Source: Rhizobacter sp. Root1221 (lineage in GTDB: Bacteria; Pseudomonadota; Gammaproteobacteria; Burkholderiales; Burkholderiaceae_C). From it: a stretch of DNA of 64,000 bases. Within the stretch, counting starts at the first letter, position 1. Every line of letters starts with the position of its first letter. Made by a program: the position numbers and the translations under genes. The stretch lies in NCBI RefSeq assembly GCF_001425785.1, contig NZ_LMDI01000009.1, positions 1 to 64,000 on the forward strand, given 5' to 3'. The notes under the pieces are model-generated. The model saw only the letters and a list, made by a program, of their open reading frames with translations, made no database searches and was not told the DNA's origin. Of the stretch, positions 37,965 to 53,672 are shown piece by piece.

Positions 37965-38075
37965 GCACCCGAAGACCAGCGGAACGCGGTCCGGGCCACC
38001 CTATCCTGTCGGACCGGGTGGAATACTGTCGTTCCTGCTTCCGCCTTGATACAAGACTCGCACGAAATGTCACCC

Positions 38076-39878
38076 ATGACCCGTTGCCCCACTACCCCGC
38101 GCTCAGCCCAGGTTCTGGCCTTGTTCTCCATGGTCGCGGCCCTGGCGGCCTGCGGCGGTGGTGGCGGCGGAGGTGGTGACGACAGTCCGGCGCCAGCCGC
38201 GGCCGGCCCGGCGGCCAGTGCCCCCGCGGCAGGGTCGCCGCCGTCCCAGCCCGTCACGTCGGCCGCACGGGTGGCCGGTGTCGACCTGGTCCAGGGTTTC
38301 GTGTTCCCCAGCACCGACAGTTCGCTGCTGCTGGTGTCCAACCGCGACGTGATCGTGAAGGTCAACGTCACCACCACCAACACGGCCGAGGCCCGCCCCA
38401 CCGGCACCTTGCGCATCGAGGACGGCAACGGCACGCTGATCGAACAGCGCGCGCTCACGGTGCCGACTGCGGCGCTGCAGTCCACGGTGCCGGTGGTACC
38501 CGATTTCACGCACTTCTACACCGCCACCGTGCCGGCCAGCGCGGTCAAGGCCGGCCTGCGCCTCACGGTGCAGCTGGCGAACGGCCAGCCGGCCACCGTG
38601 GTGACCCCGCGGGTGGGCGGCAGCAACGCCATCACGTTCGTGGCGGTGCCGGTCAGGATCCAGGGCACGGCCGCGCAGGTGTTCGCCGGCGCGGCGTCCT
38701 ACCTGGCGGCCCAGATGCCGGTGTCCACCGTCACAGCGGTCACGCACGCGGTGTTCCCGTCGCAGAAGGTGACCACGCTGCCCACCACCGATGACCAGTG
38801 GGAGGCGGCCATGCGTGAGGTGCTCGGGGAGATGGCCGAGTTGCACAATCTCGAGAACGCGACCGACCGCACCTTCTACTATGGCTTCTTGCCCAAGCGC
38901 ACCTACGGCATCACCGGCCTCGGGTACATGCCGGGCCCGGCGGCCGTGGGCATCGATTTCCCGACACAACCCGATGCCGTGGTGACCACGCTCGTGCACG
39001 AGGTGGGCCACAACTTCAGCCTGCCGCACGCGCCGTGTGGCGTGGCCAGCAGCGAAGACCCCAACTACCCGTACGCCAACGCCACGCTCGGCGCCGGCTC
39101 GCGGTTCATCTGGGGCTACGACAAACGCCGCAACGCGTTCGTCGACCCGCGTCCCACCACCGTGCACGACTTGATGAGCTACTGCGATGGCGACACGTTC
39201 TCCGACTTCAACTACCGGCGCATGCAGTCCTACCTGACCCCGGCCGACCGCCTGTCCGCCACCGGCGGGGTGAGCATCAAGTCCGTCACCGACTCGGTGG
39301 AAACCGGTCCCCAGGAGTTGCTGCTGGTCAGCGGCCGCATCGAGGGTGACCGCGCCGAACTCGGGAACGTCAAGTCGTTCACCGGCATCCCGCGCAACAT
39401 CCCCGCCGGCGCCTACGTGCTGCGGGTGGTGACGGCGGCCGGCACGGTCGATCACCCGTTCGCCCCCATGGCACTCGATCACTCCTCTGCCTTCCTGCCG
39501 TTCCACCTGGCCATCCCGAACCCCGGCCAGGTGGTGTCGATGCAGGTGCTGGCGGCCGATGGCAAGGTGCTGGCCGAACGCCGCGCCGGTTCTCCCGTCA
39601 CCACCGATCGCACGAAGGCGGTGGCGGCGGCGGCCACCACGGTTTCGGAAACGGGCGGGGTGCTGCACCTGCGCTGGGACGCGGCGGCCCAGCGGTCGCT
39701 CACCGTGATCCATGTGGGCGACACCCGCACCGTGCTCGCCCAGGACCTGGCCAGTGGCACGGCCGAGTTGCCCACGGCGGCGCTGCCGTCCGGCGGCAGC
39801 TTCGAGCTGATCTTCTCGGACGGGCTGAACTCCGTGCGGGTCACCGCACCGCGGGGCGCCGGCGGCTCGGTGAAGTGA
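38076..39878 (+). CDS. lipoprotein metzincin-type zinc metalloprotease
   Basis: A 600-residue secreted protein. The start opens a lipoprotein signal (lipobox LAAC followed by eight Gly); an alternative ATG lies three codons upstream. After a Pro/Ala linker comes a beta-rich region, then the zinc site VTTLVHEVGHNFSLPHAPCG near residue 308, which fits HExxHxxxxxH. A Met-turn candidate LMSYCDG lies near 367. Cys residues in PHAPCG and MSYC could form a disulfide. The C-terminal 200 residues are beta-sandwich-like. The spacing resembles M66/StcE- or M12-type enzymes, but the family is not certain. It is a single gene between the GNAT gene and the convergent pseudokinase-regulator gene. Confidence 0.8.
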   Translation: MTRCPTTPRSAQVLALFSMVAALAACGGGGGGGGDDSPAPAAAGPAASAPAAGSPPSQPVTSAARVAGVDLVQGFVFPSTDSSLLLVSNRDVIVKVNVTTTNTAEARPTGTLRIEDGNGTLIEQRALTVPTAALQSTVPVVPDFTHFYTATVPASAVKAGLRLTVQLANGQPATVVTPRVGGSNAITFVAVPVRIQGTAAQVFAGAASYLAAQMPVSTVTAVTHAVFPSQKVTTLPTTDDQWEAAMREVLGEMAELHNLENATDRTFYYGFLPKRTYGITGLGYMPGPAAVGIDFPTQPDAVVTTLVHEVGHNFSLPHAPCGVASSEDPNYPYANATLGAGSRFIWGYDKRRNAFVDPRPTTVHDLMSYCDGDTFSDFNYRRMQSYLTPADRLSATGGVSIKSVTDSVETGPQELLLVSGRIEGDRAELGNVKSFTGIPRNIPAGAYVLRVVTAAGTVDHPFAPMALDHSSAFLPFHLAIPNPGQVVSMQVLAADGKVLAERRAGSPVTTDRTKAVAAAATTVSETGGVLHLRWDAAAQRSLTVIHVGDTRTVLAQDLASGTAELPTAALPSGGSFELIFSDGLNSVRVTAPRGAGGSVK

Positions 39879-39977: not shown

Positions 39978-41870
39978 TCATCCGATGTGGGAGATCCAGA
40001 TGCCGGGGGCGGGTTGGGCCGGCACGTCCGGTGTGCCGGCGGTGGCCGCGGGCACGTCGGGCATGCGCCGCACCGCGAGCCCCACCGACACCATGTCGAT
40101 GACCAGCAGGTGCAGGATGCGCGAGATCATCGCCACGAACGTGGAGCTGTCCTCGTCGTGGTCCACCGCCAGGCACACGTCGGCCTTGCGGGCGAGCGGC
40201 GACTGGGTGGACGTGATGGCCACGATGGCGGCGCCGCGGTCCTTCGCGGCGTCGGCGGCGCGCACCAGTTCCGGCGTCTGCCCTGAACTCGAGATGAACA
40301 CCGCCACGTCGGCCGGCCCCAGCACCTCGGCCGCGATGGCGAACACCGACGGGTCGGTGCGTGCCACCACCGGGATGCGGAAGCGAAAGAGCTTGTGCTG
40401 CGCGTCGAGCGCCACCATCGCGGAGTTGCCCACCGCGTAGAGCTCCACCCGCGCCGCGTCGCGCAGCAGCACGATGGCCCGTTCGATGGCGTCCACGTTG
40501 ATGGATTCGCGGAACTGCACGATGGACGAAATGGTGTTGTCGAGCACCTTCGCGCACAGGTCGGACGTGGCGTCCTGCCGGTGCACCTGGGTGCGCTGCA
40601 GCGGGATGGTGCCGGTGAGGCCCGAGCCGAGCTTGAGCTTGAAGTCGGCGAGGCCCTCGAAGCCGAGCGAGCGGCAGAAGCGGATCACCGTGGGCTGGCT
40701 CACCTCGGCGCGTTTGGAGATCACGCCCACCGCGTCGTTCAGCACCGCCCGGGGGTTCTCGAGCACCACGTTGGCCACGCGCCGTTCGGCCGGTGACAGC
40801 TGCTCGCGGGCGTTGCGGATGCGTTCGAGCAGCGGGTTGCCGCCGTCGCGCGTGGGCACGTGGTCCACCAGCAGCGTGGACACCCCGTGGAACGCGAGGT
40901 TGTCGGCCGTCAGCACGTAGGTGGGGATGCGCGAGAGGTACGCGGAGAACCGCCCCTTCGCCTCGAACCGCTGGCGGAACGGCGACCGCAGGAACAGGTC
41001 ACCGAGCCGCGGCACGATGCCGCCGCCCACGAAGATGCCGCCGGTGGCGCCGAGCGTGATGGCCAGGTCGGCCGCCACGGTGCCCAGCATGGCGCAGAAG
41101 CAGTCCAGCGTGTCCACGCAGGCGGCGTCGTCGCCGCGCTGGGCGCGGCGCACGATCTCGGCCGTGGGCAGTGGCGTGAGGTTCGTGCCGTTCAGCGCCT
41201 CGTGGATCAGCTCGATGCCCGGCCCCGACACCAGCCGCTCAGCCGACACGTGCGGCAGCGTCTGCCACATGTGGCGCAACACGCGCAGCTCGCGTTCATC
41301 GCCGGGGGCAAAACTCGTGTGGCCACCTTCGCTCGCGAGGCTGATCCAGCGGTCGTTGGCGGGGATCAGCGCGGACACCCCGAGCCCCGTGCCCGGGCCC
41401 AGCAGCCCGATCACGCCGTCGGTGGCCGGTACACCCCCGCCCACCTGCACGCGCCCGGCCTCGCCCACGCCGGGCAACGCCATCGCGAGGGCGGTGAAGT
41501 TGTTGACGACCAGCAGCGTGGACAGGCCCAGCTGCTGCTGCACGTCCTGGATGGAGAACTCCCAGGCGCGGTTGGTCATGCGTACCCAGTCGCCGTCGAT
41601 CGGGTAGGCGATGGCAAACGCACCGTGCCTGGGGCGCAGGTCGGGCACCGTGTCGAGGTAGGCCTGCACGAGCGGCACGAACGCGGCGTGTTCGTCGCAC
41701 GGCAGCACCGCCACCCGTTCGAACCGGCCGCGCACGCGCTCGATGCAGAAACGCGCGTAGGTGGCACCGATGTCGGCGAGCAGGCGCGGTTCGGCCTCGC
41801 CCTGGTCCGCGGGATCGGTGGCCATCAGCTGGGCCAGTTGCGGGTCGGTGGAGACGACGGAGGGGGGCAT
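39978..41870 (-). CDS. glk: glucokinase-like domain fused to RpiR-type regulator; kinase residues altered
   Basis: A 630-residue fusion. Residues about 28-340 are a glucokinase fold. About 350-415 is an RpiR/HexR helix-turn-helix (LSPAERRVANVVLENP, SKRAEVSQPTVIRFCRSLGF). About 450-590 is a SIS sugar-phosphate domain (VELYAVGNSAMVALDA, VAVFISSSGQTPELV). This architecture is known as bifunctional glucokinase/regulator in Burkholderiales. Here the phosphate loop is DIGATYAR (33-40) instead of DIGGTNAR. The catalytic base, Asp100 of E. coli Glk in INDFTA, is Asn124 in VVNNFTA. Glucose contacts N123, E181, H184 and E211 are kept. I infer a glucose-sensing pseudokinase that regulates sugar genes. 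It lies downstream of the MalS-like gene with a 61-base gap. Confidence 0.9.
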   Translation of the reverse strand: MPPSVVSTDPQLAQLMATDPADQGEAEPRLLADIGATYARFCIERVRGRFERVAVLPCDEHAAFVPLVQAYLDTVPDLRPRHGAFAIAYPIDGDWVRMTNRAWEFSIQDVQQQLGLSTLLVVNNFTALAMALPGVGEAGRVQVGGGVPATDGVIGLLGPGTGLGVSALIPANDRWISLASEGGHTSFAPGDERELRVLRHMWQTLPHVSAERLVSGPGIELIHEALNGTNLTPLPTAEIVRRAQRGDDAACVDTLDCFCAMLGTVAADLAITLGATGGIFVGGGIVPRLGDLFLRSPFRQRFEAKGRFSAYLSRIPTYVLTADNLAFHGVSTLLVDHVPTRDGGNPLLERIRNAREQLSPAERRVANVVLENPRAVLNDAVGVISKRAEVSQPTVIRFCRSLGFEGLADFKLKLGSGLTGTIPLQRTQVHRQDATSDLCAKVLDNTISSIVQFRESINVDAIERAIVLLRDAARVELYAVGNSAMVALDAQHKLFRFRIPVVARTDPSVFAIAAEVLGPADVAVFISSSGQTPELVRAADAAKDRGAAIVAITSTQSPLARKADVCLAVDHDEDSSTFVAMISRILHLLVIDMVSVGLAVRRMPDVPAATAGTPDVPAQPAPGIWISHIG

Positions 41871-41931: not shown

Positions 41932-43725
41932 TCAGGGCGCGCGCTCGAGCAGCACGTAGCGTTGCGCGGCCAGGGCCACGCGGCCGCCCTTCACCACGCC
42001 GGTGGCACCCGAGTACGCGTCGCGCACCGTGGTGCCGTCGGCGAACGTGGTGCCCACTGCGATCTCGCCCTGGCCTGCGGCGTTCATCGCCACCACCACC
42101 GTGTCGCCCGTGGTGCGGTCGGTGCGGCTGAAGGTGTACGGGGTGTCGGCGATGCGGCGGTGTTCGCCGCGGGCGAGCGCCACGTGGCGCGCGCGGAACG
42201 TGCCGAGCTTGCGCCAGTGGGCCAGCAGCGCCGCGTCCATCGATCCCCAGTTCATGTCGGAGCGGGTGGCCTGCTGCGGGTCTGAGTCGGGCACCGGGCC
42301 CAGCGGGCGGCCGGTTTCGTCGCCGTAGAAGATCTGCACACCGCCCGGAGACAGCATCAGCGCCGCGCCACCTTCCTCGAGCTTCTGGCGGTCGAACAGC
42401 GAGGTGTCGTGGGACGACAGGTAGCTCAGCGTGGAGTAGCCGGGGCGGCCGGACAGCAGCTTGCCGTAGCGGTCGAACAGGCCGTCGGGCTGGCCGAACT
42501 GGGCGCCGCTGCCCTGGAACTCGAAGTTGATCAGGGCGTCGAAGCCGCTGCTGTGCAGCGCGTCGCGTTCGGGGCCCTTGCCCCAGTACTCGCCCACCAT
42601 CCAGAACGGCTCGTCGTCGATCTTCCTGGTGGGGTTCTTCTGCTTCCACTCGGTGAGCGCCTGGCCGGCGGCCGCCTTCAGGTCGGCCCAGGCGGCCGGT
42701 TCCACATGCTTGACCGTGTCGGCACGGAAGCCGTCGATGCCGTACTCGCGCACCCAGTCGGTGAGCCACGTGACGAGGTAGCCGCGCACCGTGGTGTCCG
42801 GCAGGTCGCGTGCGTTGGTGTCGGGTTTGCCGGGCTGGGCCACGGGGGCCGGCATCGCCGCGCCCTGGGCGGCCTTGAGGCCCTTTTTCGCGGGGGCGGC
42901 GGGCGGCGGAGAGACCGGTGCACGCTTCTGCAGGAACGCCGGCAGCTTCACGAACGCCGTGCTGTCGGTGCGGAAGTCGGGCAGGTACGCGAGCTGCATC
43001 GTCTGGTCGTCGCGCCCACCCTCGAGGTAGCCGGGCAGGCCGGCGCGCACCCAGTCGCGGCCCCACCACTGGCCGAACGCGAAGTTGTTGTAGTCGATGT
43101 ACGAGTGGTAGTCGGCGAGCGTCGCCTTCTCCGAATCTGGCCACAGCACCTTCAGGCCCAGGTCCTTGGCGGACTGGATGTCGAGGTAGCCCGGGTGGTT
43201 CATCACCACGTCGAACAGGATGCGGATGCCCTGCGCATGCGCGGTGTCCACCATCTCGCGCAGTTCGGCGGGAGTGCCCATCGACTGGTCGAGCGTGGTG
43301 AAGTCGAGCGCGTAGTAGCCGTGGTACGCGTAGTGCTTGAACTCCTTGTTGCCGCCCACCACCCAGCCGTGGATCTGCTCGTACGGCGCGGTGATCCAGA
43401 TGGCGTTGACCCCGAGCTGCCTGAACCAGCCTTCCTTCAGCTTGTCGGTCACGCCCTTCAGGTCACCGCCATGGAAGGTGCCGATCTCGTCCTTGCCGTC
43501 CTTCTGGCGGCCGTAGGCGTTGTCGTTCGACGGGTTGCCGTTGGCGAACCGGTCGGTGATCAGGAAGTAGACGATCGGGTTGTCGGCGAAGCGGCCCGGC
43601 ACCGCCGCGGGGGCGGTGGGGGTGGCCTTCGTGGCCGGCGCCGTGGGTGCCGAGGTGGAACACGCCGTGGCCATCAGCGACAGCACGGCCGCGGCAACGA
43701 GCCGCTTGGGGAGGAAGTGGTTCAC
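41932..43725 (-). CDS. malS: lipoprotein MalS-like alpha-amylase (GH13_19)
   Basis: A 597-residue alpha-amylase resembling E. coli periplasmic MalS: VYFLITDRFANGNPSNDNAYG, IGTFHGGDLKGVTDKL, WITAPYEQIHGWVVGG, YHGYYALDFTTLD and IFYGDETGRPLGP. The catalytic Asp is in GIDGFRADTVKH near 336, the Glu in WMVGEYWG near 378, and SSHD lies near 438. GTG 43725 is the start; it has GGAAG upstream and opens a lipoprotein signal (LMATAC). MalS of E. coli is a soluble periplasmic protein with a longer N-terminal domain. This one is lipid-anchored, lacks that domain and carries a Pro/Ala-rich insertion near 275-305. It lies 19 bases after the PUD protein gene. It would release short maltodextrins for LamB and MalE. 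Confidence 0.9.
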   Translation of the reverse strand: MNHFLPKRLVAAAVLSLMATACSTSAPTAPATKATPTAPAAVPGRFADNPIVYFLITDRFANGNPSNDNAYGRQKDGKDEIGTFHGGDLKGVTDKLKEGWFRQLGVNAIWITAPYEQIHGWVVGGNKEFKHYAYHGYYALDFTTLDQSMGTPAELREMVDTAHAQGIRILFDVVMNHPGYLDIQSAKDLGLKVLWPDSEKATLADYHSYIDYNNFAFGQWWGRDWVRAGLPGYLEGGRDDQTMQLAYLPDFRTDSTAFVKLPAFLQKRAPVSPPPAAPAKKGLKAAQGAAMPAPVAQPGKPDTNARDLPDTTVRGYLVTWLTDWVREYGIDGFRADTVKHVEPAAWADLKAAAGQALTEWKQKNPTRKIDDEPFWMVGEYWGKGPERDALHSSGFDALINFEFQGSGAQFGQPDGLFDRYGKLLSGRPGYSTLSYLSSHDTSLFDRQKLEEGGAALMLSPGGVQIFYGDETGRPLGPVPDSDPQQATRSDMNWGSMDAALLAHWRKLGTFRARHVALARGEHRRIADTPYTFSRTDRTTGDTVVVAMNAAGQGEIAVGTTFADGTTVRDAYSGATGVVKGGRVALAAQRYVLLERAP

Positions 43726-43744
43726 GGCGTGTTCTTCCGGCGGA

Positions 43745-44167
43745 TCAGCTGCAGGGCTTGGCTTCGCGGGCCTTCCTGGCGTCGTCGAGCGACGTGTAGA
43801 TCTTGCGGTCGCCGCTGTTGACCCAGATCTCCTTCGTGGCCGACCCGTCGAACGCCATGTCGCGTCCGCCCTGTTCCTTCGAGTCACCCTTGTGGATGAT
43901 GTAGTTCACGCGGCCCTTCGTGAATTCGTCGAGCTTGATGGTCCAGAACACCCCGAAGTCGTTCTTGCCGCTCGGTTGCAGCGGTTTTTGCCATTCGACG
44001 CCGGTCACCGGAATGCCACCGTCCTTCCACAGGTGTGCGCCCCAGCCGTCGTACGTGCTGTCGCAGCGGTTGTAGTTGATCGTGGCGGTCTGCGCCTGGG
44101 CGCCCAGGGCGCCGGCAGCCAGCGCGGCGGCCACGGCGAACTTCAGGGACGAACGGAACTCGGTCAT
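43745..44167 (-). CDS. secreted stand-alone pullulanase-associated (PUD/CBM41-like) starch-binding protein
   Basis: A 140-residue protein with a cleavable signal (ending GALGAQAQT) and essentially one domain. ATINYNRCDSTYDGWGAHLWKDGG matches the PUD start seen in PulA of this window (LRVHYRRTDGNYAGWGLHLW), followed by WTIKLDE, VNYIIHKGDSKE and the late IWVNSGDRKIYTS. There is no catalytic domain. Two Cys (near 34 and 139) could form a disulfide. It lies between malG and the malS-like gene, 19 bases before the latter's GTG. I infer that it binds starch or maltodextrin in the periplasm or outside and helps the amylase that follows. ATG 44167 opens the signal peptide. Confidence 0.85.
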   Translation of the reverse strand: MTEFRSSLKFAVAAALAAGALGAQAQTATINYNRCDSTYDGWGAHLWKDGGIPVTGVEWQKPLQPSGKNDFGVFWTIKLDEFTKGRVNYIIHKGDSKEQGGRDMAFDGSATKEIWVNSGDRKIYTSLDDARKAREAKPCS

Positions 44168-44242
44168 GGTGAGGAACCTCTCGGGCAACGTGAAGGGAAG
44201 GGGTCGCATGGGGGCGGCCCCGGTTGGGGGAAGCGGCGAGGC

Positions 44243-45133
44243 TCAGCCCTTGATGCCGCCGGCCGTGAGGCCGGAGATCATCCATTTCTGCGCCAGGATG
44301 AAGACGAGCGTGATGGGCAGGCCGGACAGGATGGCCGCGGCCGCGAAGTCGCCCCACAGGTACTTCTGCTCGTAGAGGAAGAGCTTGGAGCCCACGGCCA
44401 GCGTGAGCTTGGCTTCCTCGTGCAGCAGGATGGAGGCCACCGGGTACTCGATGATGGCGCCGATGAAGGCCAGCAGGAACACCACCATCAGGATGGGCAC
44501 CGCCATGGGCAGCAGCACCATGCGGAAGGCCTGCCACGGGGAGGCGCCGTCCACCTTCGCCGCCTCCTCGATCTCCACCGGGATGGTGTCGAAGTAGCCC
44601 TTGATGGTCCACACGTGCAGCGCGATGCCGCCCGAGTAGGCGAGCAGCAGCGACCAGTGGCTGTCGATGCCGAAGGCCGGGAACACGTTGCCGATGCGGT
44701 CGAAGATCGCGTAGATGGCCACGAGGGCCAGCACCGACGGGAACATCTGCATCAGCATCAGGCCGGCGAGCGAGGCCTGCTTGCCGCGGAACTTCATGCG
44801 CGCGAACGCGTAGGCGGCGGTGGTGGACAGGAACAGCGTGATGACGGCGGTGAGCCCCGCCACCTTGACCGAGTTCCACAGCCACACGAGCACCGGGAAG
44901 TCGGGTTTCACGAGGCGCCCGTCATCGGCCGTGTACGACATGCCGAGCGCGAGCTTCCAGTGTTCGAGGCTGATCTGTTCGGGGATCAGGCTGCCGGCGG
45001 CGAAGTTGCCGGGCCGCAGCGAGATCGACAGGATCATCAGGAACGGGAAGATCACGAGCAGCACGAGGCCGATCAGGAAGAGGTGCGCCAGCACGACGCG
45101 CCAGCGGTGGGATTTGTCGACGACGATGGCCAT
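44243..45133 (-). CDS. malG: maltose ABC transporter permease MalG
   Basis: A 296-residue inner-membrane permease with six helices. The EAA loop [29 protein letters not shown] (segments), [31 protein letters not shown] and the end [13 protein letters not shown] match MalG closely. It follows malF by 12 bases. Together with MalF and the MalK dimer it forms the maltodextrin importer. Confidence 0.95.
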
Positions 45134-45145
45134 GTGGGTGGTTCC

Positions 45146-46681
<1,536 letters not shown>

Positions 46682-46705
46682 GGCGGACAGGGGAAAAGTC
46701 GGAAG

Positions 46706-46732
46706 CCCGCCGGGGCCTCGGGCTCCGGCGGG
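46706..46732 (-). terminator. strong intercistronic hairpin between malE and malF
   Basis: CCCGCCGG (46706-46713) pairs with CCGGCGGG (46725-46732), and the stem continues through one mismatch to a 3-base loop, giving 11 of 12 pairs. There is no adjacent T tract. It has the same position as the gtsA-gtsB hairpin: after the binding-protein gene and before the permeases. It is probably a partial terminator or RNA-stabilising element. Confidence 0.7.
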
Positions 46733-46747
46733 GGATTCACGGCAGGT

Positions 46748-47950
46748 TTAGTTCGAGGTGATGCGCTTGGCCGCGCCGTCGAGCGCTTCCTTCGGCGTCT
46801 GGCGGCCTTCGGTCATGTTCTGCAGCGCGGACTGCATCGACGACCAGAAGCGGCCCATCTCCTTGATGTTGGGCATCGGTGCGCCGTCTTGCGCGCTGGC
46901 CATCGTGACCTGGATGTTCGGGTTGCTCTTGAGCTCCGAGAACAGGGCCTTGCTGGCCGGCGTGCCGAGCGGCACGTCGTCGTTGATCTGCTTCAGGCCG
47001 TTGACGCTGAGCATGTAGTTCTCGATGAACTCCACGGCCACGTCGCGGTTGGGCGACGCTTTCGAGATCATCGCGCCCAGCACGCCGACAAACGGGGCCG
47101 CCTTCTTGCCGGCCACGGTGGGGATCTTGGCAACGCCGTAGTCGACCTTGGCCTTCTTCAGGTTGTCCCACGACCACGGGCCGTTGATCATCATCGCGAC
47201 CTTGCCCTGGGCCATGCCGGCTTCCATCTCGGCGTAGCCTGCACCCTTGGTCATCACGCCGTCCTTGACGAACTTGGACAGCAGTTCGGCGCCCTTGAGC
47301 GAGCCGGCGTTGTTGACACCGGTGTCGGCCGGGTCGTAGGTGCCATCAGGCTTGAGCTTGAACACGTAGCCACCATTGGCGGCCAGGAGCGGCCAGGTGA
47401 AGAACGTGTTGTTGTAGTCCCAGAGGATGGCCTTCTTGCCGGAGGCGGACAGCTTCTTGTCCAGCGCGGCGATTTCCTCGAAGGTTTTCGGCGGGTTGGG
47501 CACGAGGGCCTTGTTGTAGACGAGTGCGACGGCTTCGATCGAGATCGGGTAGCCCCAGGTCTTGCCACCCACCGTGAAGGCCTTCCAGGCCAGCGGGTCG
47601 ATGTCGGCCTGCACCTTCTTGCCCGGGGTCACGGTCTGCAGCAGGCCGCCGCCGATCCACTCGCCGATGCGGTCGTGCGGCCAGATCCAGATGTCGGGGC
47701 CCTTGCCGGCCGCGGCGGCCTGCTGGAACTTGCCCGGGGCGTCTTCCGGGTGCTCCACGATGACCTGCACGCCGGTCTTCTTGGTGAACTCTTCGCCGAC
47801 CTTGGCCAGGCCGTTGTAACCCTTGTCACCGTTGATCCAGATCAACAGCTTGCCCGGCTCGGCCGCCTGGGCGTGCAGCGCGAAGCCGCCACCGAGGGCC
47901 AGGGCTGCCGCAGCGGCCAGCAGTTGAATCTTTTGGCGTTGGACTTTCAT
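46748..47950 (-). CDS. malE: maltose/maltodextrin ABC transporter substrate-binding protein MalE
   Basis: A 400-residue periplasmic binding protein (E. coli MalE precursor is 396). The signal peptide ends near [76 protein letters not shown] and [12 protein letters not shown] are all MalE-like. Unlike the paralogue at 6733 it has no insertion near residue 70. It sits between malK and malF in the operon. Confidence 0.95.
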
Positions 47951-47978
47951 CTTCAGTTCTCCTTCAGTGGATGCCGAG

Positions 47979-49055
<1,077 letters not shown>

Positions 49056-49074: not shown

Positions 49075-50745
49075 TCAGGCGGCCATCTCGCCGAAGTAGA
49101 AGCCGTGCCCGGGCAGCGTGAAGCGGTTGCCGGCGCGTCGGCCTTGTTGCGCCGGGTCCAGGTGGGTGGCCGTGGCCACGGTGGTGGCCACGTCGAGCGT
49201 GATGTCGACCGGGGTGGCGCCGAGGTTGAACACACACAGCAGTGTCTTCCCGCCGGCGCCCGCCTCGGGCGATCGCACCAGTGCCAGCACGGGTTCCGGC
49301 GCGTCGATGAAGCGGATGTCGCCGGTGAGCAGCGCGGGCTGGGTCTTGCGCCAGGCGAGCAGGCGGCGCATGAAGTTCAGCGGCGAGGCGGGGTCGGCCT
49401 CCAGCACGTCGACCGCACGGGCGCGGTGTTCGGCCGGCACCGGGAGCCACGGCGCCACGTCGAGGCCGTTGCTGAAGCCCCCGTGCGGCTGGTGCTGCGC
49501 CCAGGGCATCGGGGTGCGGCAGCCGTCGCGGCCCTTGAATTCGGGCCAGAACGTGATGCCGTACGGGTCCTGCAGCTTCTCGAACGGGATGTCGGCTTCC
49601 GTCAGGCCCAGCTCGTCGCCCTGCCACCAGCACACGCTGCCGCGCAACGACACGAGCATGGCCATCGCGACCTTGCTGTAGGCGAGGGGCGCGTCGGCGC
49701 CGCCCCAGCGGGTCTGCACGCGGGCCACGTCGTGGTTGCCGTAAGACCAGCTGGCCCAGCCGTCGTGCATCTGCGCCTCGAGCTCCTCCACCTCGCCGCG
49801 GATGTGGGCGGCCGAGTTGTCGGTGGTGAGCAGGTTGAAGCTGTACGCCATGTGGAGCCGGTCGCCGCCCTTGGTGTACTCGGCCATGACCTTCAGCGAA
49901 TCGTCGTCGCCGATCTCGCCCACGCTGGCCGCGCCGTACTCGTTGAGCAGCGCGCGGATGCGCTTGAGGTACGGCACGTTCTCGGGCTGGGTCTTGTCGT
50001 ACAGGTGGCGCTGCATGCCGTACGGGTTGCTTTCACCCACGCTGCGGGTGTCGCGTTTCTCGGCCGGCGGGTTGTTGCGCAGCTGGCGGTCGTGGAAGTG
50101 GAAGATGCAGGCGTCGAACCGGAAGCCGTCCACGCCCCGTTCGAGCCAGAAGCGGATGTCGGCGAGCACCTGGTCCTGCACTTCCGGGTTGTGGAAGTTC
50201 AGGTCGGGCTGGCTGGCCAGGAAGTTGTGCAGGTAGAACTGCCGGCGGCGGGCATCCCACTGCCAGGCGGAACCGCCGAACACGCTGAGCCAGTTGTTGG
50301 GCGGGGTGCCGTCGGGCTGCGGGTCGGCCCACACGTACCAGTCGGCCTTCGGGTTCGTGCGGCTCGTGCGGCTTTCGGTGAACCAGGCATGCTGGTCGGA
50401 CGTGTGCGACAGCACCTGGTCGATCATGATCTTCAGGCCGAGCACGTGGGCTTCGGTGATCAGGCGGTCCAGGTCGGCCAGCGTGCCGAACAGCGGGTCG
50501 ACGTCGCGGTAGTCGGCGATGTCGTAGCCGAAGTCCTTCATCGGGGAGCGGAAGAACGGCGAGATCCAGATGGCATCCACCCCGAGGCTCGCGATGTACG
50601 GCAGGCGGTCGATGATGCCGGGCAGGTCGCCCACGCCGTCGCCGTTGTGGTCGGCAAAGCTGCGCGGGTAGACCTGGTAGATCACGGCGCCACGCCACCA
50701 GGACGTGTCGGCAGGGATGGGTCGGGGGGATGCGGAAGTATTCAC
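49075..50745 (-). CDS. cytoplasmic alpha-glucosidase (GH13_23-like)
   Basis: A 556-residue exo-acting alpha-glucosidase releasing glucose from imported maltose and maltodextrins. YQVYPRSFADHNGDGVGDLPGI (segments), DQVLSHTSDQHAWF, nucleophile GFRFDAC near 211, acid/base SVGEIGDDDS near 276 and SYGNHD near 338 are visible. DQVLSHTSDQH and the GEIGDDDS form point to subfamily 23 rather than oligo-1,6-glucosidase. There is no signal peptide. The start is uncertain: GTG 50745 gives the usual N terminus but has only a weak ribosome site, and an in-frame ATG at 50796 adds 17 residues. It lies between lamB and malK. Confidence 0.9.
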   Translation of the reverse strand: MNTSASPRPIPADTSWWRGAVIYQVYPRSFADHNGDGVGDLPGIIDRLPYIASLGVDAIWISPFFRSPMKDFGYDIADYRDVDPLFGTLADLDRLITEAHVLGLKIMIDQVLSHTSDQHAWFTESRTSRTNPKADWYVWADPQPDGTPPNNWLSVFGGSAWQWDARRRQFYLHNFLASQPDLNFHNPEVQDQVLADIRFWLERGVDGFRFDACIFHFHDRQLRNNPPAEKRDTRSVGESNPYGMQRHLYDKTQPENVPYLKRIRALLNEYGAASVGEIGDDDSLKVMAEYTKGGDRLHMAYSFNLLTTDNSAAHIRGEVEELEAQMHDGWASWSYGNHDVARVQTRWGGADAPLAYSKVAMAMLVSLRGSVCWWQGDELGLTEADIPFEKLQDPYGITFWPEFKGRDGCRTPMPWAQHQPHGGFSNGLDVAPWLPVPAEHRARAVDVLEADPASPLNFMRRLLAWRKTQPALLTGDIRFIDAPEPVLALVRSPEAGAGGKTLLCVFNLGATPVDITLDVATTVATATHLDPAQQGRRAGNRFTLPGHGFYFGEMAA

Positions 50746-50970
50746 GGGACGAGGCTCGGCGTCGGGCAGTTCAATGGCAGGGCAAGAACAGGGCAAGAAC
50801 AGGGCTTCAAGGCCATGGGCACCACCGGGGTGATGGCCATGGCGCTGAAGGCAAGCCCACCGGCTCGTGGCCAGCGGACCTGCCGGAAACAGGTGCGCAT
50901 AGGGTCTCCGAAATGGCGGCGGGGTTCCTTGTGGGATTCCCTGCCAACCATTTGCGTCAACCCCGGTGGA
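50746..50970. repeat. lamB-alpha-glucosidase gap with an 11-bp tandem repeat
   Basis: A 225-base intercistronic gap. CAGGGCAAGAA is repeated 2.5 times at 50778-50805, 33 bases upstream of the GTG start of the alpha-glucosidase. No clear terminator with a T tract was seen, so readthrough from lamB is likely. Confidence 0.5.
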
Positions 50971-52700
<1,730 letters not shown>

Positions 52701-53672
52701 TTGAACCAGGAATCCACCTTCCCCCGGCTGCTCGGCGACATCGGCGGCACCAATGCCCGCTTCGCCTGGCAGGCTTCGCCCGGTGCCGCCCTGACCGACA
52801 TCGCGACGTACCCGGCGGCGGACTACGCCACCGTGCTCGACGCCATCCGCGAATACCTGCGCGCCCACGCCAAGCCCACGCCGCGCTGGTGTGCCATCGG
52901 CATCGCGAACCCGATCACCGGCGACCGGGTGCAGATGACGAACCACCACTGGTCGTTCTCGATCTCCGAAGTCCAGCGTGCGGTCGGGCTCGACCGCTTC
53001 CTGCTCATCAACGACTTCACCGCGCTGGCGCTGTCGTTGCCGGCGCTCGAGGCCGGCCAGCTGCGCCAGGTGGGCGGTGGGCAGGTGGTCGACGGTGGGC
53101 CGGTGGCGTTGGTGGGGCCGGGCACCGGCCTCGGGGTGTCGGGGCTGCTGCACACCGGAGGTGGGGTGAGCGTGCCCCTCAATGGCGAAGGGGGTCACGT
53201 CACGCTGGGTGGCACGAACGACCGCGAAGATGCCGTGATTGCATCGCTTCGTCGCCGTTTCGGGCATGCGTCCGCGGAGCGTGCGCTCTCCGGCCCGGGG
53301 CTCGTGAACCTGTACGAGGCGCTGTGCGAGCTGGACGGGGTGCTGGCAAAACCCATGACGGCAGCGGCACTCACCGCCGCATCGGTGGCCGGCAGCGACC
53401 CGCAGGCGGCCGAAACCGAGGCGCTTTTCTTCTCGTTCCTCGGCACGGTGGCCGGCAACCTGGCCCTGTCGCTCGGAGCGCGGGGTGGGGTTTACATCGG
53501 GGGGGGTATCGTGCCGCGCCTGGGTGACCGTATCCTTGCGTCCGCCTTCCGCAACCGTTTCGAGCAGAAGGGGCGTTTCCAGCCCTACCTGGCCTCGATC
53601 CCGGTGTTTGTCGTGTCGGCCGAGGTGTCCCCGGCGCTGATCGGGGCTGCCCGCGCCCTCGACGTTCTTTGA
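52701..53672 (+). CDS. glk: glucokinase (catalytically intact)
   Basis: A 323-residue kinase (E. coli Glk is 321) making glucose 6-phosphate from glucose and ATP. The start is TTG 52701 with AGAGGT 9 bases upstream; no ATG lies at a suitable place. LLGDIGGTNARF (phosphate loop, residues 11-22), LLINDFTALALSLP with catalytic Asp105, GPGTGLGVSG, EGGHVTL and SAERALSGPGL are all canonical. It is divergent from lamB and would handle glucose released by the alpha-glucosidase. It contrasts with the altered glucokinase domain at 39978-41870. Confidence 0.95.
   Translation: MNQESTFPRLLGDIGGTNARFAWQASPGAALTDIATYPAADYATVLDAIREYLRAHAKPTPRWCAIGIANPITGDRVQMTNHHWSFSISEVQRAVGLDRFLLINDFTALALSLPALEAGQLRQVGGGQVVDGGPVALVGPGTGLGVSGLLHTGGGVSVPLNGEGGHVTLGGTNDREDAVIASLRRRFGHASAERALSGPGLVNLYEALCELDGVLAKPMTAAALTAASVAGSDPQAAETEALFFSFLGTVAGNLALSLGARGGVYIGGGIVPRLGDRILASAFRNRFEQKGRFQPYLASIPVFVVSAEVSPALIGAARALDVL

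Follow-up and report, generated by a model that had tools for sequence, protein, structure and literature searches.

Does a glucokinase domain that has been joined to a sugar-responsive regulator still phosphorylate glucose, or does it now only read it? The question is raised by a gene in a 64,000-nucleotide stretch of DNA from Rhizobacter sp. Root1221 (hereafter the window), which encodes a 630-residue Glk-HTH_6-SIS fusion (39978-41870, minus strand) behind an amylase gene. Judging from sequence comparisons, we consider it reasonably probable that this proposed glucose-responsive regulator is kinase-dead and acts as a repressor of the maltodextrin genes and of glk, with glucose as its probable ligand.

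Pfam places all three domains on one chain: Glucokinase (PF02685; residues 30-334; 40869-41783, minus strand), an RpiR-type HTH_6 (residues 347-415; 40626-40832, minus strand) and SIS (residues 469-589; 40104-40466, minus strand), as the initial annotation had it when it placed RpiR DNA-binding and SIS domains beside the kinase half. ROK (PF00480) gave no match among the fusion's four Pfam families. The standard glucokinase models are satisfied, with 322.6 bits for PF02685 (cut-off 22.1) and 281.1 bits for TIGR00749, the NCBIfam glucokinase (cut-off 225.45). The fusion shares its domain order with PRK14101 / NF010701 (bifunctional transcriptional regulator/glucokinase) and is homologous to it over residues 14-603; a Paraburkholderia xenovorans protein is named as a bifunctional glucokinase - HexR transcriptional regulator in the part of the source available (PMC12568896). 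The window's fusion scores below the PRK14101 cut-off (778.9 against 920 bits), but this cut-off does not part dead from canonical proteins. Of two canonical fusions that are the sole Glk of their genomes, one reaches 1220 bits (L140) and the other only 856.5 (L141); we therefore regard the cut-off as strict and rejected the shortfall as a sign of lost activity. What does set the window's fusion apart from PRK14101 / NF010701 is the replacement of the catalytic Asp and of residues in the phosphate loop.

These replacements were located by alignment to E. coli Glk (PDB 1q18). Asp100, which we take to be the catalytic residue of that enzyme, corresponds to Asn124 (codon AAC; 41499-41501, minus strand), D9 to D33, G12 to A36 and N14 to Y38. 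Asn124 and DIGATY stand where the catalytic Asp and the DxGG[TS]N loop would be expected; the phosphate-1 loop as a whole reads DIGATYAR (canonical DxGGTNAR; 41751-41774, minus strand), with A36 and Y38 in the places of Gly12 and Asn14. The glucose contacts N99, E157, H160 and E187 are kept as N123 (codon at 41502-41504, minus strand), E181, H184 and E211 (the last three within 41238-41330, minus strand). Both the exchange of Asp100 for Asn, by an AAC codon, and the retention of the four contacts had been put forward in the initial annotation, and both hold in this alignment. Its broader claim, that phosphotransfer had been removed and the ligand pocket kept, stands in part: by its residues the fusion is likely kinase-dead, but Asp100 itself contacts glucose and the pocket is touched too. 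In E. coli Glk, Asp100 moves towards the O3 of glucose on binding and contacts it, as described in the part of the source available (PMC13133996). Asp100Asn therefore bears on both catalysis and the glucose pocket and, Asp100 being an O3 contact, may reduce the affinity of the fusion for glucose.

Few other conserved positions have changed. Across 63 kinase-only rows, 62 positions reach at least 95% conservation, and at only four of them does the majority of the Asn-carrying clade differ (G12A, N14Y, D100N and L111V). Three of these fall among ten phosphotransfer positions taken from hexokinase-fold motifs and one among the 52 others (p=0.012, a guide only, the ten having been picked after the changes were seen). 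The altered loop is indeed present, as the initial annotation claimed, but it extends well beyond the Asn proteins: a non-canonical loop is present in 109 of 116 fusions. D-x-G-G-[TS]-N-x-R is intact in only 7/116 fusions, compared with 60/63 kinase-only rows; Massilia-type fusions have DIGATH and the remaining family members mostly DIGGTY or DIGGTF, Asp100 being retained in all of these. Because His stands at N14 in two kinase-only rows, a substitution at that position is by itself not necessarily fatal to activity. Asp100Asn, the additional change of the Asn clade, looks like one further step of a family-wide drift of the loop. Throughout this drift N99, E157, H160 and E187 are intact in 116/116 fusions; a partial fusion outside the tree (L143) has Gln at the E157 position. 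As a separate observation, four fusions that keep Asp100 have a wrecked or altered loop (L124, AIDGSE; L125, DIDGAR; L126, EIDGEF; L113, DIGRTF), each apparently an independent path towards a kinase domain that is weak or dead.

To place Asp100Asn among relatives, fusions were gathered from the genus (11 genomes), a collection of named genomes (36 loci), a family sample (299 genomes, 68 of which matched at E 1e-120) and an order sample (300 genomes, 27 with a match); in a class sample of 321 genomes (E 1e-110), the window's own genome was the single match, and no fusion came from outside the order. We kept 116 distinct fusions, 115 with frames longer than 500 aa and one added for the tree. Left out of the 116-row tree were repeats (L006, L007, L046, L051, L075, L076, L112 and L157), two rows with a stop in the aligned stretch (L098 and L118), two partials at contig ends (L127 and L143), two broken rows (L061 and L149) and seven loci in which glk and hexR-like frames adjoin (L142, L145, L146, L148, L150, L152 and L153); a partial match in G169 also lies outside the 116 rows. 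Where the Asp100 position is covered, the left-out rows have Asp, except for Asn in L006, L007, L075 and L076, which are repeats from the clade.

In the resulting quick maximum-likelihood tree, which carries long-branch warnings that include L077 (an Asn row) and L154 (beside the Asn and Massilia-type groups), Asn occupies the Asp100 position in 20/20 members of one clade of Rhizobacter and relatives (100% SH-aLRT), encoded by AAC in each, and Asp occupies it in all 96 other fusions and in 63/63 kinase-only rows (one of which, L149, is a truncated fusion). On this tree the Asp-to-Asn change is of single origin and is kept in every member of the clade. The possibility named at the outset, that Asn is common here in active or other fusions, was scored and is rejected, with none found among the 96. 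Sequencing error or a private mutation is likewise rejected, because 20 distinct sequences carry the Asn. Median pairwise dN/dS values for the kinase and regulator halves are 0.40 and 0.33 in the Asn clade and 0.24 and 0.19 in the Asp-keeping Massilia-type fusions, absolute values that codon bias makes unreliable and of which only the comparison of halves is used. The kinase-to-regulator ratio is similar in the two groups, and thus no faster relative decay of the dead domain is seen.

A kinase-dead fusion would leave glucose phosphorylation to another enzyme. The canonical glucokinase that had been noted about 11 kb away is there: a stand-alone gene divergent from lamB (52701-53672, plus strand), which has its start 10.8 kb away from that of the fusion, reads DIGGTN and LINDFTA and is the one stand-alone Glk match in its own genome. 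We used this Glk as the query for further copies (E 1e-30; 72 + 57 genomes), counting only Glk-type matches, with ROK and polyphosphate glucokinases outside the counts. At least two matches were found in all 72 family genomes searched; each of the 68 matched family genomes has one fusion, so the further match there is not a second full fusion. The genomes of the Asn clade have two or three matches in 20/20 cases, that is, a further Glk in each. Among the matches listed, 109/109 non-canonical fusions share their genome with a further Glk match, in Massilia-type genomes sometimes a second fusion, and the fusion is the sole match in four genomes (G312, G422, G490 and G583), where its loop and Asp are canonical. 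Statistical proof that the loop change follows a second Glk was attempted and dropped, because only three independent pairs are available and the sign test is void.

The regulator half has kept features of a sugar-phosphate sensor. Among solved structures, HTH_6 and SIS are closest to RccR of Pseudomonas aeruginosa (8ju9 and 8k3b, the latter solved with KDPG), a KDPG-responsive member, like HexR, of the RpiR family. The RccR-aligned SIS serines, which presumably bind sugar phosphate, are kept in the fusion in the motifs GNS483 and ISSSG (526-530). GxS and ISxSG, simple patterns drawn from the window's protein, respectively match 19 and 20 of 20 clade members, 24 and 31 of 34 Massilia-type fusions, 6 and 6 of 7 canonical fusions and 2 and 25 of 55 others; the misses may be failures of the pattern or real loss. 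The retention of these motifs suggests that the SIS half of the clade could still read a sugar phosphate, and hence that the protein may have two inputs. An AlphaFold2 model of the fusion (26 sequences; mean pLDDT 70.9, pTM 0.58) has 1sz2, E. coli Glk with glucose, as its first Foldseek match and RccR with KDPG as its fourth. Its pLDDT falls below 50 at 161-163, 170-175 and 179-186, and because these loops around the glucose site are among its least certain parts, the model says nothing on ligand geometry.

Which ligand would a dead kinase domain bind? We think it unlikely, although the strongest of the alternatives, that the pocket binds glucose 6-phosphate or a different sugar, such as maltose, in place of free glucose. 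The neighbouring genes handle maltodextrins, and in E. coli Glk a phosphate occupies an anion pocket beside glucose, as the available part of the source describes (PMC13133996). The pocket residues H160, S185, R188 and R286 are kept in 20/20 clade members, and with most of the pocket in place, glucose 6-phosphate or another sugar is possible as a ligand. However, H183 of the same pocket is kept in only 12/20 members and is Arg in the other 8/20, whereas every other row compared has His, and a site of the sugar-phosphate type is already provided by the SIS half. It is very unlikely, in our estimation, that the kinase domain has kept a slow but still useful glucokinase activity, which would make the protein the bifunctional enzyme-regulator of its family name: the ATP-side motifs GTGLG and GGGIVPR are kept and the TIGR00749 score is well clear of its cut-off (281 against 225 bits), but 20/20 clade members have lost the catalytic Asp together with Gly12 and Asn14, and every one of their genomes has a further Glk match. 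Just as improbable is a ligand-free dimerization scaffold with all sensing done by the SIS domain, because, even with a dimer interface described for E. coli Glk in part of the same source (PMC13133996) and with the ligand of the kinase half deduced from its residues, a mere scaffold would not need the four glucose contacts kept in 116/116 fusions while the loop was altered in 109. We favour free glucose as the ligand of the dead domain.

The genes around the fusion indicate what such a sensor could control. On the minus strand of the window run, in order, the maltoporin gene lamB (50971-52248; PF02264), the first proposed target; a GH13 alpha-amylase-family gene (49075-50796; PF00128); the maltodextrin ABC transporter genes malK, malE, malF and malG (44243-49055); a gene for a protein with a pullulanase-associated (PUD) domain (43745-44209; PF03714); an alpha-amylase gene (41932-43887; PF00128), 61 nt upstream of the fusion; and the fusion itself. 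The next gene downstream encodes a Peptidase M66-like protein and is convergent with the fusion gene (38046-39878, plus strand). An amylase or GH13 gene directly precedes the fusion in 16/20 clade members. The exceptions are L077, whose fusion lies behind glk (as seen in L171), and L033, L034 and L060, without such a gene directly before the fusion; a GH13 gene also directly precedes a fusion in 8/10 Massilia-type loci compared (not in L036 and L037). L034 has, divergent from its fusion, a TonB-receptor plug-domain gene that is followed by a tryptophan-halogenase-like gene. The genome of the window also encodes a second MalF-like protein (G000:C23:140214-141674), 53% identical to the MalF of the window.

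Four genomes of the same genus have no fusion (G002, G006, G008 and G009), and in these the order GH13-malK-malE-malF-malG-amylase is kept at 63-88% identity. A homologue of a LacI-type regulator lies upstream of the GH13 gene in 4/4 (identified by Pfam in L195, 4067-5275, plus strand, with homologues in L194, L196 and L197). This homologue was not found in the window or in the fusion-bearing loci compared; one weak LacI-like match occurs elsewhere in the window's own genome (L187). The early suggestion that the fusion controls sugar genes is borne out, as far as sequence can tell, and extended by its gene position, by these fusion-less congeners and by a conserved box.

The proposed operator, GTAGCTTGACTAC, lies between lamB and glk (52455-52467, unstranded). 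It is the window's only match to GTAGTNNNACTAC at no more than one mismatch in 64 kb, where 0.11 are expected and 11/100 shuffles contain at least one; a single box in the window alone is no strong surprise. Across relatives, the same search gave 29 sites in 12 lamB-glk regions from the clade, none of them without a site, and eight control palindromes together gave 2 matches in the same 12 regions. Three of these regions (G003, G004 and G010) share one and the same pair of box sequences and lie on contigs other than the fusion's, the contig of G003 carrying the glk side only. In each of two further clade loci, three boxes lie upstream of lamB; L171 has two upstream of glk and the fusion, and L033, L034 and L060 have one each upstream of the fusion. 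Among the clade loci that extend far enough upstream to be read, which L031 and L032 do not, the box is present in 18/18, a count that is not independent, because the motif was discovered in the regions counted.

Evidence independent of that count comes from the half-sites of RccR, from recurrence at other fusions and from fusion-less genomes without the box. The half-sites of the box, TGTAGT-N3-ACTACA, equal the RccR consensus half-sites TGTAGT/ACTACA, which were confirmed by SPR and footprinting and whose short form is 15 bp, according to the part of the source available (PMC5489143). The box occurs somewhere in 19/28 Massilia-type loci and within 700 nt upstream of 20/33 other family fusions with long enough flanks. 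It was found neither in the 20 kb mal regions nor in the 4 kb around glk of G002, G006, G008 and G009. A HexR-like protein is encoded further along the window's contig, and an RccR/HexR-type box lies between edd and pgl-hexR in the same genome (G000:C9:84221-84233; L193). Ownership of the box is therefore not exclusive to the fusion, and the HexR-like protein may share boxes with it. HexR-like genes remain in the four fusion-less genomes, the mal and glk regions of which have no box. A genome-wide count of the box was set aside as uninformative: it gave 51 places at no more than one mismatch in the window's own genome, and the reversed control, with 730, is a codon-like pattern. Only intergenic box counts were used, because codon-like palindromes also score high over whole loci.

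We propose that the fusion originated as an enzyme-regulator fusion of the glk-hexR type, the kinase half of which would have become a catalytically dead, sugar-binding sensor, making the whole a one-component transcriptional regulator. The alpha-glucosidase-type enzymes of the maltodextrin genes would free glucose inside the cell, and this glucose would close the dead kinase domain. The RpiR half, which we infer to sit on the TGTAGT-N3-ACTACA boxes between lamB and glk, would then alter its grip on DNA, so that the genes for maltodextrin uptake and breakdown, together with glk, would respond to intracellular glucose, presumably by repression rather than activation. The SIS domain probably senses a further, phosphorylated ligand, for which KDPG is the candidate by relation to RccR. 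More tentatively, and with less than even confidence, we can picture a two-input flux sensor in which one polypeptide reads both glucose, the substrate of Glk, through its dead domain and KDPG, a later product, through SIS, and sets maltodextrin uptake and glk by the balance of glucose supply and use. The conversion of enzyme to sensor would then be under way across most of the fusion family (109/116 with an altered loop), with Asp100Asn an especially complete step.

Sugar kinases turned sensors are known from the ROK family, in which the repressors NagC, Mlc and XylR act without phosphotransfer. Those repressors also use a sugar-kinase fold with a DNA-binding domain as a sensor, but the window's fusion derives from the Glk (PF02685) family, carries the DNA-binding part C-terminal to the kinase fold and has a SIS domain in addition. 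With RccR and HexR it has in common the half-sites of the proposed box and the aligned SIS serines, but it carries a kinase-fold domain in front, and its proposed targets are the maltodextrin genes and glk. A parallel exists in the plant hexokinase HXK1, a catalytically inactive mutant of which still takes up glucose in its structure, as the available part of the source describes (PMC8256278). Such mutants sense glucose without catalysis, as is proposed for the fusion; however, they are laboratory mutants of a plant enzyme, whereas the fusion is bacterial, naturally occurring and fixed, and brings a DNA-binding domain of its own. No kinase-dead Glk-RpiR protein was found in the open literature by title and the start of the abstract (subscription papers may hold more), and the matches listed for glucokinase and pseudokinase in the open literature include no bacterial regulator. 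On this survey, the loss of the catalytic Asp is specific to the clade.

If correct, this reading also exposes a likely annotation error, because the fusion clears the usual glucokinase threshold and on that basis would be entered as an enzyme that phosphorylates glucose. The proposed sensor can now be given named target genes and an operator. A Glk-type (PF02685) pseudokinase joined to a phosphosugar regulator would open the path from enzyme to sensor to stepwise testing, with likely intermediates still represented among relatives: adjacent glk and hexR frames, canonical fusions, fusions with an altered loop and fusions that lack the Asp. The adjacent frames occur in seven single-match genomes (the glk/hexR-like neighbour loci L142, L145, L146, L148, L150, L152 and L153), where a glk frame and a hexR-like frame adjoin, with one or two stops in the match and canonical loops; they probably represent the pre-fusion state. 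Some genomes hold two fusions. In four Massilia loci (L036, L038, L047 and L059), two Glk-RpiR fusions are separated by about 6.5 to 7.7 kb; G520 has one canonical fusion and a partial second that does not cover the loop (L158 and L143); and G578 has one canonical fusion and a second with a DIGGTY loop (L178 and L136).
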